Assembly (NCBI GenBank): GCA_027061855.1
Contig: JAMOVT010000008.1
Span: 1 to 64,000 of the forward strand
Length of the DNA stretch: 64,000 bases
Source: Flavobacteriales bacterium
GTDB lineage: Bacteria > Bacteroidota > Bacteroidia > Flavobacteriales > Flavobacteriaceae
Reading direction: 5' to 3'
Made by a program: the position numbers and the translations under genes. Under the pieces are notes generated by a model that was given only the letters and a program-made list of their open reading frames with translations, did no database searches and had not been told where the DNA came from. This document shows positions 1 through 29,997 of this stretch, piece after piece. The first letter of the stretch is position 1. Every line of letters begins with the position of its first letter.

Positions 1-79
1 CTACTGCTCTATCCCGCGATATATTCTTTATTATTTCAATTTCTTTTCAATTTCTGGTCCTGCGTCCGCCTTAGGCGGA

Positions 80-117
80 TATGAGCCCGACGAGCTACCT
101 ACTGCTCTATCCCGCGA
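80..117 (-). pseudogene. tRNA(fMet)-like 5' half, third copy
   Basis: Identical to the copy at 178-215. A fourth copy begins at 1-19 on the minus strand (CGCGGGATAGAGCAGTAG) and is cut by the window edge. Confidence 0.65.
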
Positions 118-177
118 TATATTCTTTATTATTTCAATTTCTTTTCAATTTCTGGTCCTGCGTCCGCCTTAGGCGGA

Positions 178-215
178 TATGAGCCCGACGAGCTACCTAC
201 TGCTCTATCCCGCGA
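178..215 (-). pseudogene. tRNA(fMet)-like 5' half, second copy
   Basis: Same segment as at 277-314 but with the D-loop/stem reading GGTAGCTC, which is closer to initiator tRNA. It is followed, in the minus direction, by the palindrome at 163-177 and by cgcaggaccag, which recalls a T-arm strand joined directly to an ACCA-like end. Confidence 0.65.
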
Positions 216-276
216 TATATTCTTTTATTATTTCAATTTCTTTTCAATTTCTGGTCCTGCGTCCGCCTTAGGCGGA

Positions 277-314
277 TATGAGCCCGACGAGCAACCTACT
301 GCTCTATCCCGCGA
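277..314 (-). pseudogene. tRNA(fMet)-like 5' half, promoter-proximal copy
   Basis: Read on the minus strand this begins with acceptor-like CGCGGGA, continues with a D-arm-like GAGC-AGTAGGTT-GCTC, and reaches an anticodon-stem-like TCGGG followed by loop CTCATAT containing CAT. That is the order and nearly the sequence of a bacterial initiator tRNA 5' half as I remember it. The expected CCCGA anticodon 3' strand, T-arm and 3' acceptor strand are missing and a GC-rich palindrome follows instead, so it cannot fold as a normal tRNA. This copy has GGTTGCTC where the other copies have GGTAGCTC. Confidence 0.7.
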
Positions 315-325
315 TGTTTGTGGTG

Positions 326-357
326 CAAATATACAACATTTTTAATAGCTTTGTCAA
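326..357 (-). promoter_or_regulatory. Strong Bacteroidota-type promoter reading into the tRNA-like array
   Basis: On the minus strand TTGACA (352-357) is followed after 18 bases by TATATTTG (326-333), which fits the Bacteroidota consensus TTG-N~19-TAnnTTTG. The first tRNA-like segment begins about 11 bases further on, so transcription should start almost exactly at its 5' end. It points away from the AsmA gene, so it can only serve the array or something beyond the left edge. Confidence 0.75.
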
Positions 358-4522: not shown

Positions 4523-7500
4523 ATGAAAAAATATTGGAGAAGTTTAGAAGAATTGGAAGCTATCAAGAAAGAGGGTGCATTGGAGCCCAGCATTGAGTTT
4601 CCTACCGACGGACTTTCGGAAGACGAAATAAAAAACAAATATGTTTCAAACCGTAGAGACTTTTTAAAATTATTAGGTTTCTCTACTGCTTATGCAGTGG
4701 CAGCTACCAGTTGTCAACAACCCGTTAGAAAAGTAATTCCCTATTTGCAAAGACCCGAAGAAGTTATTCCGGGAGTAGCAAATCATTATGCTTCTACTCT
4801 TTTTACTCCGGATGATTATGCTTCGGTAGTGGTAAAAGTAAGAGACGGAAGACCCATTAAAATTGAAGGAAATAAACTTTCAAAAATTACACAGGGAGGA
4901 ACAAATGCCCGTATGCAAGCGGCTGTTTTGGATCTTTATGATACTGCGAGATTACAACATCCACTTAAAGGCGGAAAGAAAACCACTTGGGAGGATGCAG
5001 ATAAAGAAATCACTGCCAAATTGGAAAAAATCGCAGGTGCGGGTCAAAAAATTATAATTTTGGCCAGTACGGTGATAAGCCCTTCAACCAAACAACTTTT
5101 TGAAGATTTCAAAGCCAAATATCCTACGGCTGAAGTAGTTTATTTGGATCCGGTTTCCTATTCGGCTATTATCGATGCGCATGAAGGAAGCTTTGGAAAA
5201 GCAGCCATTCCTTCCTATCATTTTGATAAAGCAAAAGTAATTGCCGGATTTAATGCCGATTTCTTGGGCACTTGGTTGTCACCCGTACAATTTGCTGCCG
5301 ATTATGCAAAAACACGTGATTTGACCAATGGCAAAAAAGAAATGTCTCGCCATTATCAATATGATACATTGATGACATTAACTGCCAGTAATGCAGATTA
5401 TCGTACCATCATCAAACCGGCACAAGAGAAAAAATTACTTATCAAACTTTATAATGAACTCGCCAAAGCCACAGGCAATGCCTCTTTAAAAGCCTTGGCA
5501 TGTGATATAGATATCGATAATTTAGTCAAAGACTTATTAGAGAATAAAGGACAATCCTTGGTTGTATCGGGCACCAATGATAAATCCATTCAGCTATTGG
5601 CTGCCGGCATTAATAATATGTTGGGTAACTACGGAAACACCTTGGATATTCAAAAAGAAACTTTACTCAAACAAGGTAGAGATGCACAAATCAAGCAAGC
5701 TTTTGATGATATGAAATCTGGTAAAGCTGCTGCTGCCATCTTTTATCATACAAATCCGGTTTATACTTGTCCCAATGGAGAAGATAAGGCGAAATTGATT
5801 GAAGGCTTAAAACTTTCTGTTTCTATTTCGGACAAAGAAGATGAAACAGCCAAACATACTCAGTATGTATTGCCGGATAATAATTTCCTTGAATCATGGG
5901 GAGATGCAGAACCTATTAAAGGAAGTTTTAGTTTGGCTCAACCTACCATTAATAAATTATGGGATACACGTCAAGCACAAGAAGGATTTATGAAATGGGC
6001 TGGAATACAAGGAACCTATTATGATTATTTGAAAAAATATTGGGAAGATAACATTTTACCCAAACCCGAAATTGAGAATGAAAACGAAGAAGAAGTAGCA
6101 CAAGAAATCAAAGACTTTGCAAGTGGTTGGATAAAAGCTCTTCAAGATGGAGTTTATGAAGTGGAAGTAACGGGAGATGCTCCTGTTTTCAATGCAGAAT
6201 ACATTACTGCCAATGAAGATAAAATTACTGCTTTCCAAAAACCCGAAGGTTTGCGTTTGAGTCTTTATGAATCTGTTCAACTCGGTTCCGGTCTCAATGC
6301 AAACAACCCTTGGTTACAAGAAATGCCAGATCCTATATCCAAAGTAACTTGGGATAATTATGTGGCTATTTCTCCAAAATTGGCCGAAGAAAAAGGTTTA
6401 AAAACAGAAGATGTAGTAAAAGTTAAATCCGGTAAAATAGAGGTGGAACTTCCTGTTCTCGTTCAACCGGGACAAGAAAAAAATACTGTAGCCATTGCTT
6501 TGGGATACGGACGTACAGCTGCCGGACCTATTGCAGATGAGACAGGTGGAGCCAATGCTGCCGTTTTCATTCAACACAAAGACGGATACAGACAATATAG
6601 CGATATTCCCGTGGAAATAAATGCTACCGGAAAAACCTATGAATTGGCTCAAACCCAAACCCATGATGTAATGGAAGGACGCGGGTCTATCATTGCCCGT
6701 GAAACTACCTTGAAAGAATGGCAAAAAAATCCGCATGCAGGAAATGAGGCACATGTTTTCTTTAAAGAGAAATTAGAACATGTTAATCTTTATAAAAAAG
6801 GATATAATGAAGACGATTATATTGGACATCACTGGGGATTAGCAATTGATTATAACAAATGTACCGGATGTAGTGCTTGTATTATAGCTTGTCAAGTGGA
6901 GAATAATATTGCTATTGTAGGAAAAGAGCAAGTACGCAAGCGTAGAAATATGCACTGGTTGAGAATCGACAGGTATTATTCAACAACAGAAGATAAATTA
7001 TATGCTCCGGTTGAAGAAAATCCCGAAGTATTTTATCAACCTGTGATGTGTCAGCACTGTGACAATGCTCCTTGTGAGAATGTTTGTCCGGTTGCGGCTA
7101 CTCCTCATACCGACGAAGGATTAAACAGTATGGCCTATAACCGTTGTATCGGAACCCGTTATTGTATGGCCAACTGTCCTTATAAAGTAAGAAGATTTAA
7201 CTGGTTTAACTTTGTAGAAGGAGGTGATTACAATTATCTTTTCAATGACGAAGTAAAACGTATGGTATTGAACCCTGATGTAGTTGTAAGACAAAGAGGG
7301 GTAGTAGAAAAATGTACTATGTGTGTGCAACGAATTCAAGAAGGAAAACTCAAAGCCAAAAATGAAGGAAGAGAATTACGTGACGGCGAAATTCAAGTGG
7401 CTTGTGAGCAAGCTTGTCCTTCAAATGCCATTGTGTTCGGTGACACGAATATGGAAGGTGCCAGAATTGTTCAATTATTCAAAGATGAACGTTCATACGG

Positions 7501-7588
7501 ATTATTGGAAGAATTAAAAACATTGCCCAGTGTAGTGTATATGACCAAAGTGCGTAATAAAGAAGAAGCACATCAAACTGAAGCTTAA
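4523..7588 (+). CDS. actB: Alternative complex III subunit B, molybdopterin-family/Fe-S fusion
   Basis: Large peripheral subunit of alternative complex III, 1021 residues from the ATG at 4523; a TTG six codons upstream is possible but less likely. A twin-arginine motif (NRRDFLKLLGF, ~43-53) followed by a Cys near residue 64 indicates Tat export. The first ~700 residues resemble molybdopterin oxidoreductases; in characterised ACIII complexes this domain carries no molybdenum. The C-terminal part holds ferredoxin-type cysteine clusters: CTGCSACIIACQ (~780), CQHCDNAPCENVCP (~843), CIGTRYCMANCP and the CTMC...CEQACP pair. It lies 27 bases after actA. Confidence 0.93.
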   Translation: MKKYWRSLEELEAIKKEGALEPSIEFPTDGLSEDEIKNKYVSNRRDFLKLLGFSTAYAVAATSCQQPVRKVIPYLQRPEEVIPGVANHYASTLFTPDDYASVVVKVRDGRPIKIEGNKLSKITQGGTNARMQAAVLDLYDTARLQHPLKGGKKTTWEDADKEITAKLEKIAGAGQKIIILASTVISPSTKQLFEDFKAKYPTAEVVYLDPVSYSAIIDAHEGSFGKAAIPSYHFDKAKVIAGFNADFLGTWLSPVQFAADYAKTRDLTNGKKEMSRHYQYDTLMTLTASNADYRTIIKPAQEKKLLIKLYNELAKATGNASLKALACDIDIDNLVKDLLENKGQSLVVSGTNDKSIQLLAAGINNMLGNYGNTLDIQKETLLKQGRDAQIKQAFDDMKSGKAAAAIFYHTNPVYTCPNGEDKAKLIEGLKLSVSISDKEDETAKHTQYVLPDNNFLESWGDAEPIKGSFSLAQPTINKLWDTRQAQEGFMKWAGIQGTYYDYLKKYWEDNILPKPEIENENEEEVAQEIKDFASGWIKALQDGVYEVEVTGDAPVFNAEYITANEDKITAFQKPEGLRLSLYESVQLGSGLNANNPWLQEMPDPISKVTWDNYVAISPKLAEEKGLKTEDVVKVKSGKIEVELPVLVQPGQEKNTVAIALGYGRTAAGPIADETGGANAAVFIQHKDGYRQYSDIPVEINATGKTYELAQTQTHDVMEGRGSIIARETTLKEWQKNPHAGNEAHVFFKEKLEHVNLYKKGYNEDDYIGHHWGLAIDYNKCTGCSACIIACQVENNIAIVGKEQVRKRRNMHWLRIDRYYSTTEDKLYAPVEENPEVFYQPVMCQHCDNAPCENVCPVAATPHTDEGLNSMAYNRCIGTRYCMANCPYKVRRFNWFNFVEGGDYNYLFNDEVKRMVLNPDVVVRQRGVVEKCTMCVQRIQEGKLKAKNEGRELRDGEIQVACEQACPSNAIVFGDTNMEGARIVQLFKDERSYGLLEELKTLPSVVYMTKVRNKEEAHQTEA

Positions 7589-7613
7589 CCAAATTTTTTA
7601 AAATCATTCAATT

Positions 7614-9020
7614 ATGTATAAAAAAGAAGTCAGAGGTGAATTAATATTAGGCAATAAAACCTACGGGGATATTACCGCCGATATATTAAGGTCACAAGAA
7701 GAAAAAGCCCCTTTATGGTGGTGGATTGCTTTTGGAATCTCCTTTATTTTGATGGCTATCGGATTGGGATATTATGTTCCGCTAACCATTGCCAAAGGAA
7801 TCGGGATGTGGGGAAATAATAACCAAGTCGTATGGGGCTGGGCCATCATCAACTTTGTTTGGTGGATTGGTATCGGTCATGCAGGAACGGCTTTTTCCAT
7901 TTTCTTATTGGTATTTCGTCAAAAATGGCGTACTTCAATTAACCGTGCAGCTGAAGCGATGACGGTTTTTGCGGTATTGGCTGCCGGATTATTTCCCGGA
8001 ATTCATGTAGGTCGTGCTTGGGATGAGTTCTTTATCTTCCCTTACGGGCCGAACTCTCGTGGATTATGGGTGAATTTTAATTCGCCATTACTCTGGGATG
8101 TTTTTGCCATTTTGACTTACTTAACCACTTCGGCCATTTTTTGGTATATCGGTATGTTGCCTGATTTTGCTACGGTTAGTGAGCGTTCTCAAGGTTTAAA
8201 GAAAAAAATATTCCGTGCATTAAGTTTGGGATGGTTAGGAAAAATGTCCTCTTGGAGAAAGTTTGAAGATACCTTGGTTATACTTGGCGGATTGGCAATG
8301 CCTTTGGTAATTGCAGTACACTCCATCGTATCTACCGACTTTGCCGCAGGTGTACTACCGGGTTGGCACGAAACGATTTTCCCTCCTTTCTTTGTGGTAG
8401 GGGCGATTTTTTCCGGTTTCAGTATGGTTGTTACCTTGATGGTAGTAATTCGCTTGATGTTTAAATTGGAAGACTATGTTACCGACGATCACTTTGATGC
8501 GATTGCACGTATCATTACTTTTGTGAGTTTGATTATGGGTTCGGCTTACTTAATAGAACTTTTTGTTGCATGGTATTCAGGAAACGTATTTGAAAATTAT
8601 GTGTTTAATGAAAATTATTTAAAAGGACATTATGCAGCCCCTTATTGGTGGATGATTATATTTAATGCTTTTTTACCTCAATTATTCTGGTTTAAGAAAG
8701 TGCGAAGAACCCTTTGGATGATTTTTGTCATTACCATTTTTGTAAATATTGGTATGTGGTTGGAACGTTATAATATTGTCGTACCTCCAATGGCAGAAGA
8801 CTTTTTGCCTGCAGGATGGTTTAAATATTCTCCTACCATTGTAGATAAATGGATTTATTTGGGAACGATCGGATTATTTTTGGTAGGTGTATTGTTATTC
8901 ATCAGATTTATTCCGATGATGGCCATGAACGAATTAAAACAACAAGCAAAACGTCAAACCGACTTGAAACCCACAGCCGGTGAATATATTGCATTTAAAA
9001 AACTATTGGAAGATGAATAA
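7614..9020 (+). CDS. actC: Alternative complex III subunit C, NrfD-like quinol-site membrane protein
   Basis: A 468-residue NrfD/PsrC-family integral membrane protein with about ten hydrophobic segments, expected to hold the menaquinol site next to the ActB iron-sulfur clusters. Trp-rich stretches at the N terminus (PLWWWIAFGISF) and histidines within the helices (GIGHAG, HVGRAWDEF, AVHSIVSTDFA) are typical of ActC. It is separated from actB by 25 bases, and its last codons overlap the actD start by 8 bases, suggesting translational coupling. Confidence 0.92.
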   Translation: MYKKEVRGELILGNKTYGDITADILRSQEEKAPLWWWIAFGISFILMAIGLGYYVPLTIAKGIGMWGNNNQVVWGWAIINFVWWIGIGHAGTAFSIFLLVFRQKWRTSINRAAEAMTVFAVLAAGLFPGIHVGRAWDEFFIFPYGPNSRGLWVNFNSPLLWDVFAILTYLTTSAIFWYIGMLPDFATVSERSQGLKKKIFRALSLGWLGKMSSWRKFEDTLVILGGLAMPLVIAVHSIVSTDFAAGVLPGWHETIFPPFFVVGAIFSGFSMVVTLMVVIRLMFKLEDYVTDDHFDAIARIITFVSLIMGSAYLIELFVAWYSGNVFENYVFNENYLKGHYAAPYWWMIIFNAFLPQLFWFKKVRRTLWMIFVITIFVNIGMWLERYNIVVPPMAEDFLPAGWFKYSPTIVDKWIYLGTIGLFLVGVLLFIRFIPMMAMNELKQQAKRQTDLKPTAGEYIAFKKLLEDE

Positions 9021-29687: not shown

Positions 29688-29997
29688 GTGTATCATTTTT
29701 GTTGGTTGTTTTCTTTTTAAGGAAAGCCAGGCCAAAAATCATACACATTTCCTTCGGAAAAAAGAGATATATTTCTCCCATATTCCGTAGTAAATCATTT
29801 TTGTCCTCCTTTCCAATTCGGATATTCCAAGGAATATCGTCGGGTGGCATAAAAGTTTCCCTTTATACCAATCGGCCAAATAATCATATTCAAAAAATCG
29901 AACGTAGATACAATGGCTCGGAGTTTTAATACCACAAAAATAGGGGAGTGAGTTGATAAAAAGAAGATTTTTATCAGTTTTGATTGCATTAAAAATA
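29688..29997. other. Non-coding stretch upstream of the TonB receptor
   Basis: About 310 bases with no convincing gene. It holds the palindrome at 29821-29838 and, on the minus strand, AAAGGAGGA a few bases before an ATG that opens only a 19-codon reading frame (MIYYGIWEKYISFFRRKCV). Longer overlapping minus-strand frames here have no signal peptide, family features or Bacteroidota promoter, and I do not call them. Confidence 0.5.
29821..29838. promoter_or_regulatory. 18-bp palindrome upstream of the TonB receptor
   Basis: gatattccaaggaatatc: two perfect 8-base arms around two central bases, 134 bases before the receptor start. It may be an operator; the regulator is unknown and it does not match the palindrome at 3359-3379. 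Confidence 0.45.

Follow-up and report, generated by a model that had tools for sequence, protein, structure and literature searches.

A contig-end array of broken initiator tRNA genes, probably left by a homing-like GIY-YIG element of tRNA-Met genes in Bacteroidota

How does a series of initiator tRNA (fMet) genes, each broken off just behind its anticodon, come to stand under a tRNA promoter in a bacterial chromosome? The question is raised by the first bases of contig C8 in a Flavobacteriales assembly (G000; 2.04 Mb, 117 contigs, 95% complete), of which bases 1-64000, the whole stretch of DNA that was analyzed, are called the window here. On its minus strand, from position 313 down to position 1, lies an array of three complete units of 98-99 bp and a partial fourth (TRF: period 98, 3.2 copies, 99% matches), the units being 98-100% identical to one another; as the window begins at base 1 of the contig, this copy number is a lower bound. 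Each unit opens with CGCGGGATAGAGCAGTAGGT(T/A)GCTCGTCGGGCTCATA, which corresponds to nucleotides 1-37 of the initiator tRNA and ends on the CAT anticodon and A37. A perfect 15-nt hairpin follows, TCCGCCTAAGGCGGA (TCCGCC-TAA-GGCGGA), and behind it the tRNA sequence resumes with CGCAGG, the 5' side of the T stem (nt 48-53); the unit closes with ACC and an AT-rich spacer whose last bases are ATAT. Unit 1 (215-313, 99 bp) carries one A-to-T change, located in its D arm, and a hairpin of the form TCCGCC-TNA-GGCGGA at 262-276, in the place of tRNA nt 38-47. Units 2 (117-214) and 3 (19-116), both 98 bp and identical in make-up, carry nt 1-37 of fMet without change and match the hairpin motif at 163-177 and 65-79, respectively; the motif occurs three times in the 64 kb, every time inside the array. 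The 18 bases at 1-18 (minus strand) are 18/18 identical to the start of fMet and are cut by the contig end, belonging either to a fourth unit or to the beginning of an intact fMet gene.

These data bear out the initial annotation in its description of three minus-strand units of about 98 bp that start with a tRNA(fMet) 5' half: over their first 40 nt the units are 95-98% identical to the intact fMet genes of relatives, which units 2 and 3 match exactly as far as the hairpin and unit 1 with one difference. The units had also been read as broken tRNAs, and ARAGORN indeed finds no complete tRNA in the window, so an ordinary tandem fMet array, in which each repeat is a complete tRNA, was rejected. 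The claim that a palindrome and AT-rich sequence replace the 3' half holds for the hairpin and the spacer, except that six T-stem bases (nt 48-53) remain. A group I or II intron or a known RNA family was likewise rejected, as the insert measures 15 nt and no Rfam family matched at the window start or at other arrays; a weak match at the array (S774) merely ends in the fMet start. Elsewhere in the window, at 29790-29935 (minus strand), a Moco (molybdenum/tungsten cofactor) riboswitch exceeds the Rfam gathering score.

The promoter proposed just ahead of the first unit is present at 357-326 on the minus strand and is of the Bacteroidota tRNA type: TTGACA (357-352), an 18-nt spacer and TATATTTG (333-326), followed by the leader CACCACAAACAT. 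This TTGACA-N18-TATATTTG arrangement ends 12 nt before unit 1, and closely similar promoters precede the intact fMet genes of the congeneric genomes G001 (contig C308) and G002. An intact fMet gene is absent from the G000 assembly, which has two other tRNAs with a CAT anticodon, taken to be the elongator Met tRNA and a lysidine-type Ile tRNA. Since contig C8 begins inside the array, the intact fMet most likely lies in an assembly gap, and we predict it beyond the C8 contig end. The missing gene could also be read as a sign that each 5' half is completed in trans by a 3' half encoded elsewhere, but with an intact fMet in congeners and relatives, no separate 3' half found in G000, and a contig ending inside the array at the very point where the intact gene is expected, a split tRNA is hardly credible. 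The position of the array exactly at a contig start, together with the fact that two further G000 contigs (C72 and C67) also end in such arrays, might point to mis-assembly; on the other hand, single or double units of the same form lie within longer contigs of other, independent genomes (L168, L187, L192, L202), and a contig break within a true tandem repeat is to be expected and leaves only the copy number uncertain. We therefore regard an assembly artefact as very improbable.

The window contig carries a nuclease gene no more than it carries an intact fMet; Pfam matches to the GIY-YIG family (PF01541) were obtained in G000 on three other contigs (C67, C78, C72). At the end of C67 (C67:169-560) the hairpin with its tRNA flanks occurs twice, as GGGCTCATA-TCCGCCCGAGGCGGA-CGCAGG, and the two copies flank a small fMet-type GIY-YIG open reading frame (ORF). 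In the sister species G001, the end of contig C12 bears fMet 3' halves, all with GGGCTCATA-TCCGTCGGTTGACGGA in front of them, and a related GIY-YIG ORF that is 56% identical to the one on C67. Within the genus of the window, fMet is bare in G002, and remnants are found in G001 and G000. Near its end, C67 also has a gene (5859-7715) that shares 91% identity with the neighbor of fMet in G001. Joining C8 to C67 by synteny remained unproven, given that asmA, which precedes the window array, is not beside fMet in G002 and that the pnt-like neighbor of the G001 nuclease sits on another contig of G000 (C114). The fMet neighborhoods differ among the three congeners, which suggests, without proving, that the hairpin/tRNA repeats promote rearrangement.

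The proximity of broken tRNAs and a small nuclease gene was found far outside this genus. A search of 84,980 species genomes, for which an alignment of the GIY-YIG proteins alone served as query, with neither tRNA nor hairpin in it, returned 80 loci (one of them, L194, on the same contig as the G001 nuclease). Although many loci end close to the gene and some tRNAs are perhaps out of view, a tRNA lies within 500 nt in 55 of the 80, against 11.1 expected from random placement inside the same loci, and in 49 it stands directly upstream on the same strand. Nearly all of these are tRNA-Met, both initiator and elongator, and a few loci adjoin Val, Asn or Arg tRNA genes. On the nuclease tree the fMet and elongator Met targets are clustered, with 24 label changes in all compared to 39.7 in shuffles. 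The rule that all small GIY-YIG genes adjoin tRNAs was rejected: most members of a family sample based on Pfam do not, and the association holds for this clade only. Outside Bacteroidota, related genes were seen beside tRNA-Asn or tRNA-Met in Cloacimonadota (L204, L211, L225), Giovannonibacteria (L230) and Balneolota (L186). The ORF of the element is free-standing, encodes about 85 amino acids and belongs to the small type of GIY-YIG nuclease. Its invariant residues (Y7, Y18, G20, R28, H32, E65), together with profile matches in the PDB to UPF0213 proteins and the structure-specific nuclease SLX1, make it likely that the protein cleaves DNA. In phage, plasmid and viral collections no copy was found that would indicate a phage or plasmid vehicle.

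The broken copies at the GIY-YIG loci are copies of the host's own tRNA-Met and share the breakpoints of the window units: the hairpin, with the consensus TCCGYY...RRCGGA, follows nt 37 and the tRNA resumes at about nt 48, so that nt 38-47 are lost, while most loci retain an intact tRNA-Met. The strict junction TCATATCCG-N(4-14)-CGGAC (TCATA/TCCG..CGGA/C) gives 71 sense-strand matches, distributed over 43 of the 80 loci, and none on the antisense strand or in reversed sequences. With a pattern that prescribes no more than the left side, 76 of 100 matches are followed by CGGAC at a distance of 20 nt or less, where 1.1 would be expected. The hairpins differ by compensatory changes. At the two inner positions left free in the selection of hairpins, pair 5 is Watson-Crick in 49 and pair 6 in 50 of 50 distinct hairpins (C-G and T-A types), against permuted means of 31.1 and 39.4 and with none of 2000 permutations as high, a test that is optimistic owing to relatedness, although pair changes of this kind reappear from one family to another. 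A less strict pattern survey of the whole class gave true hairpins, judged by eye, in about 10 of 119 genomes, mixed with chance matches. In the genome G055 (L114, L115) a dispersed repeat with GGCGGATATGAGCC, the reverse complement of the hairpin junction, lies at about a dozen places with no tRNA.

Compensatory change of this kind could be explained by selection at the RNA level, and with a real tRNA promoter in front and possible pairing, predicted by RNAfold, between the unit and the 3' half of an intact fMet behind it, one may ask whether the transcribed 5' halves affect fMet supply or tRNA processing, be it as decoys for RNase P or modification enzymes or by attenuation through pairing with the downstream tRNA 3' half. 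Covariation also fits a role at the DNA level (cruciform or single-strand), however, the Rfam search gave no family match, and the same hairpin stands in downstream 3'-half units by the nuclease gene, a setting that leaves no function for a 5'-half decoy; a functional RNA is accordingly quite unlikely, and the roles first suggested for the array, as a decoy for RNase P or modifying enzymes or as a source of tRNA-half RNAs, are unsupported.

Two geometries were distinguished among the loci. In the downstream one, an intact tRNA is followed by a terminator, the GIY-YIG ORF, an anticodon-stem strand, the hairpin and a tRNA 3' half. In the genome G118, fMet is trailed by three tandem repeats of about 368 bp consisting of GIY-YIG gene, hairpin and 3' half, and similar units occur at L158, L163 and the Val locus of G000. 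In the upstream geometry, a promoter precedes a tRNA 5' half (well preserved or degraded), the hairpin, a T-stem strand, an AT-rich spacer and the intact tRNA. An upstream unit of broken tRNA-Met and hairpin was present in 10 of 49 loci with an intact tRNA-Met, as a tandem pair at L187 and L202 and with a clean 5' half like that of the window at L168, L192 and L207; the spacer TTTGAAATTGAAATAAGAAATTAAAACTATAT of L202 resembles AGAAATTGAAAAGAAATTGAAATAATAAAGAATATAT of the window. The window array is the upstream form in at least three copies. At L182, about ten tandem tRNA-fMet/GIY-YIG units follow one another with a period of 457 bp, their hairpin lacking the right arm (TCATATCCGCCTGAGATTCGAG).

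The element is present at some fMet genes and absent from orthologous ones. Behind the same upstream gene, which we take for a GTPase gene on the basis of its sequence, fMet is occupied by the element in G118 and is bare, with a terminator and neither nuclease nor hairpin, in G155 and G182; this comparison concerns the relatives of G118, whose empty loci are too diverged downstream for an empty/filled pair at the level of single bases.

It could be argued that the host alone produced the window array, replication slippage having amplified a tandem fMet array of which the extra copies decayed, with the hairpin a common dispersed palindrome and the GIY-YIG gene a hitchhiker near tRNA genes. Intact tandem fMet arrays do exist in relatives (G037, G040, G053, G035, G052), and palindromes of another type are dispersed in G000, some of them away from tRNAs. 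Such decay, though, would yield neither one fixed pair of breakpoints with one covarying hairpin in dozens of lineages nor near-perfect 5' halves that are 98-100% identical to one another, and the adjacency of GIY-YIG genes and tRNAs lies far above expectation, which makes this explanation unlikely. The earlier suggestion of a decaying amplified tRNA locus was correct as to amplification; what did not stand is the idea of isolated decay, the unit being a recurrent module, with fixed breakpoints, of a Bacteroidota-wide tRNA-Met GIY-YIG family.

Several other palindromic repeats were observed along the way. Broken copies of tRNA-Asn, tRNA-Arg(TCT) and tRNA-Val in G000 (C72:1-617, L055; C64:200-440, L056; C78:9975-11190, L111) have a hairpin of a second type, TCCCGA...TCGGGA, in place of the anticodon arm; the broken tRNA-Asn copies form a tandem array of about 110 bp period, and the Val locus has three tandem GIY-YIG copies, two with a stop codon. 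Further dispersed or tandem repeats with the same kind of palindrome, with no tRNA seen nearby, are located at C113:500-950, C70:7811 (GGTGGCTGAGTG-TCCCGAACTCGCTTCGGGA-TGTATCGAAGC) and C47:9745. Further hairpins take the place of the D arm or the T arm as well in several of the broken tRNAs (upstream at L179, L187, L189, L190 and L202; downstream at L179 and L187; and at the G000 Val locus), and it seems that every tRNA arm can be replaced by a strong palindrome.

Taken together, we consider it probable that the window array was left by a homing-like GIY-YIG element that targets initiator and elongator tRNA-Met genes, as a footprint that lacks the nuclease gene and has been amplified in tandem; such remnants would arise by cleavage and recombinational repair. 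The element would consist of the free-standing gene of about 85 codons just downstream of a tRNA gene, with broken tRNA-Met copies on its flanks and the hairpin standing in for roughly nt 38-47, between anticodon and T stem. By analogy with the phage enzyme SegB, the nuclease would cut tRNA-Met close to the anticodon/variable region; with an occupied copy as template, repair would then bring in a segment that has a tRNA half of its own, restoring one complete tRNA and leaving the half it displaces as a remnant marked by the hairpin. As the rebuilt tRNA would stay cuttable, cutting could be repeated, and together with unequal repair this could expand the remnants in tandem, on the downstream side in the form of 3' halves that include the ORF, on the upstream side as 5' halves that lack it. 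The hairpin may render the remnant uncuttable, be a by-product of repair or insulate the transcript, and a single small enzyme with a DNA substrate would be enough to put its role (immunity mark, repair intermediate or RNA insulator) directly to the test. Given the predicted pairing of a unit with the fMet 3' half, remnants could burden the host. Among the points against the homing-like explanation are these: an intact tRNA that can still be cut is unusual for a homing endonuclease, and the 5'-half geometry requires an extra step beyond a simple homing model.

Compared with known systems, the closest likeness may be sought in T-even phages, where SegB, a free-standing GIY-YIG enzyme, cuts tRNA genes and is needed for tandem amplification of the tRNA-segB unit (PMC13096335; for the homing of SegB see PMC2330249, cited in PMC3984707). 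A GIY-YIG gene beside tRNA genes and the tandem amplification of tRNA-containing segments are shared with SegB. The present element differs in being chromosomal, about 85 amino acids long in its product and largely dedicated to tRNA-Met, and its tRNA copies, broken at fixed points with a covarying hairpin, are a feature that the SegB accounts consulted do not report. In cyanobacteria, the anticodon region of tRNA-fMet holds a group I intron with a homing endonuclease (Bonocora and Shub 2001, cited in PMC3984707). Like this intron, the present element would be selfish DNA aimed at the fMet anticodon region; unlike it, a hairpin of about 15 nt here replaces tRNA sequence with no route to splicing, and the intact tRNA is a separate complete copy. 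The endonuclease of the cyanobacterial intron also belongs to a different nuclease family, LAGLIDADG. In REP/RAYT systems, too, short palindromes are propagated in cis together with a dedicated gene for a nuclease-like protein, and non-autonomous arrays occur, but those enzymes are of the HUH/Y1 type and their sites extragenic, whereas the present loci combine a GIY-YIG gene with tRNA gene halves. Integrative elements use tRNA 3' ends as attachment sites and restore an intact copy, and the present element would likewise be inserted into a tRNA gene with an intact copy restored. An element of this kind does not fit our loci, where the breakpoints are internal (nt 37/48) and not at the tRNA 3' end; at 0.1-0.4 kb the present elements also have no room for an integrase gene. 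We class the array with the free-standing GIY-YIG elements of homing type, as derived from an apparently new variant; the array is known from its sequence, and the candidate nuclease lies on other contigs.

More tentatively, and as something we would sooner doubt than assert, these loci may represent an undescribed class of minimal bacterial mobile element, in which a GIY-YIG nuclease of about 85 amino acids and a covarying hairpin use tRNA-Met halves as ends (Val, Asn or Arg tRNA halves in sister clades with the second hairpin type), rebuild the tRNA with each insertion and spawn nuclease-free arrays; no published description of such an element or array was found among open-licence papers. 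If the proposal is true, it would account for the broken tRNA repeats that recur where Bacteroidota contigs end, and it would provide chromosomal counterparts to the tRNA-amplifying nuclease SegB. It would also mean that a selfish nuclease is able to inhabit the essential and nearly invariant initiator tRNA gene without killing its host.
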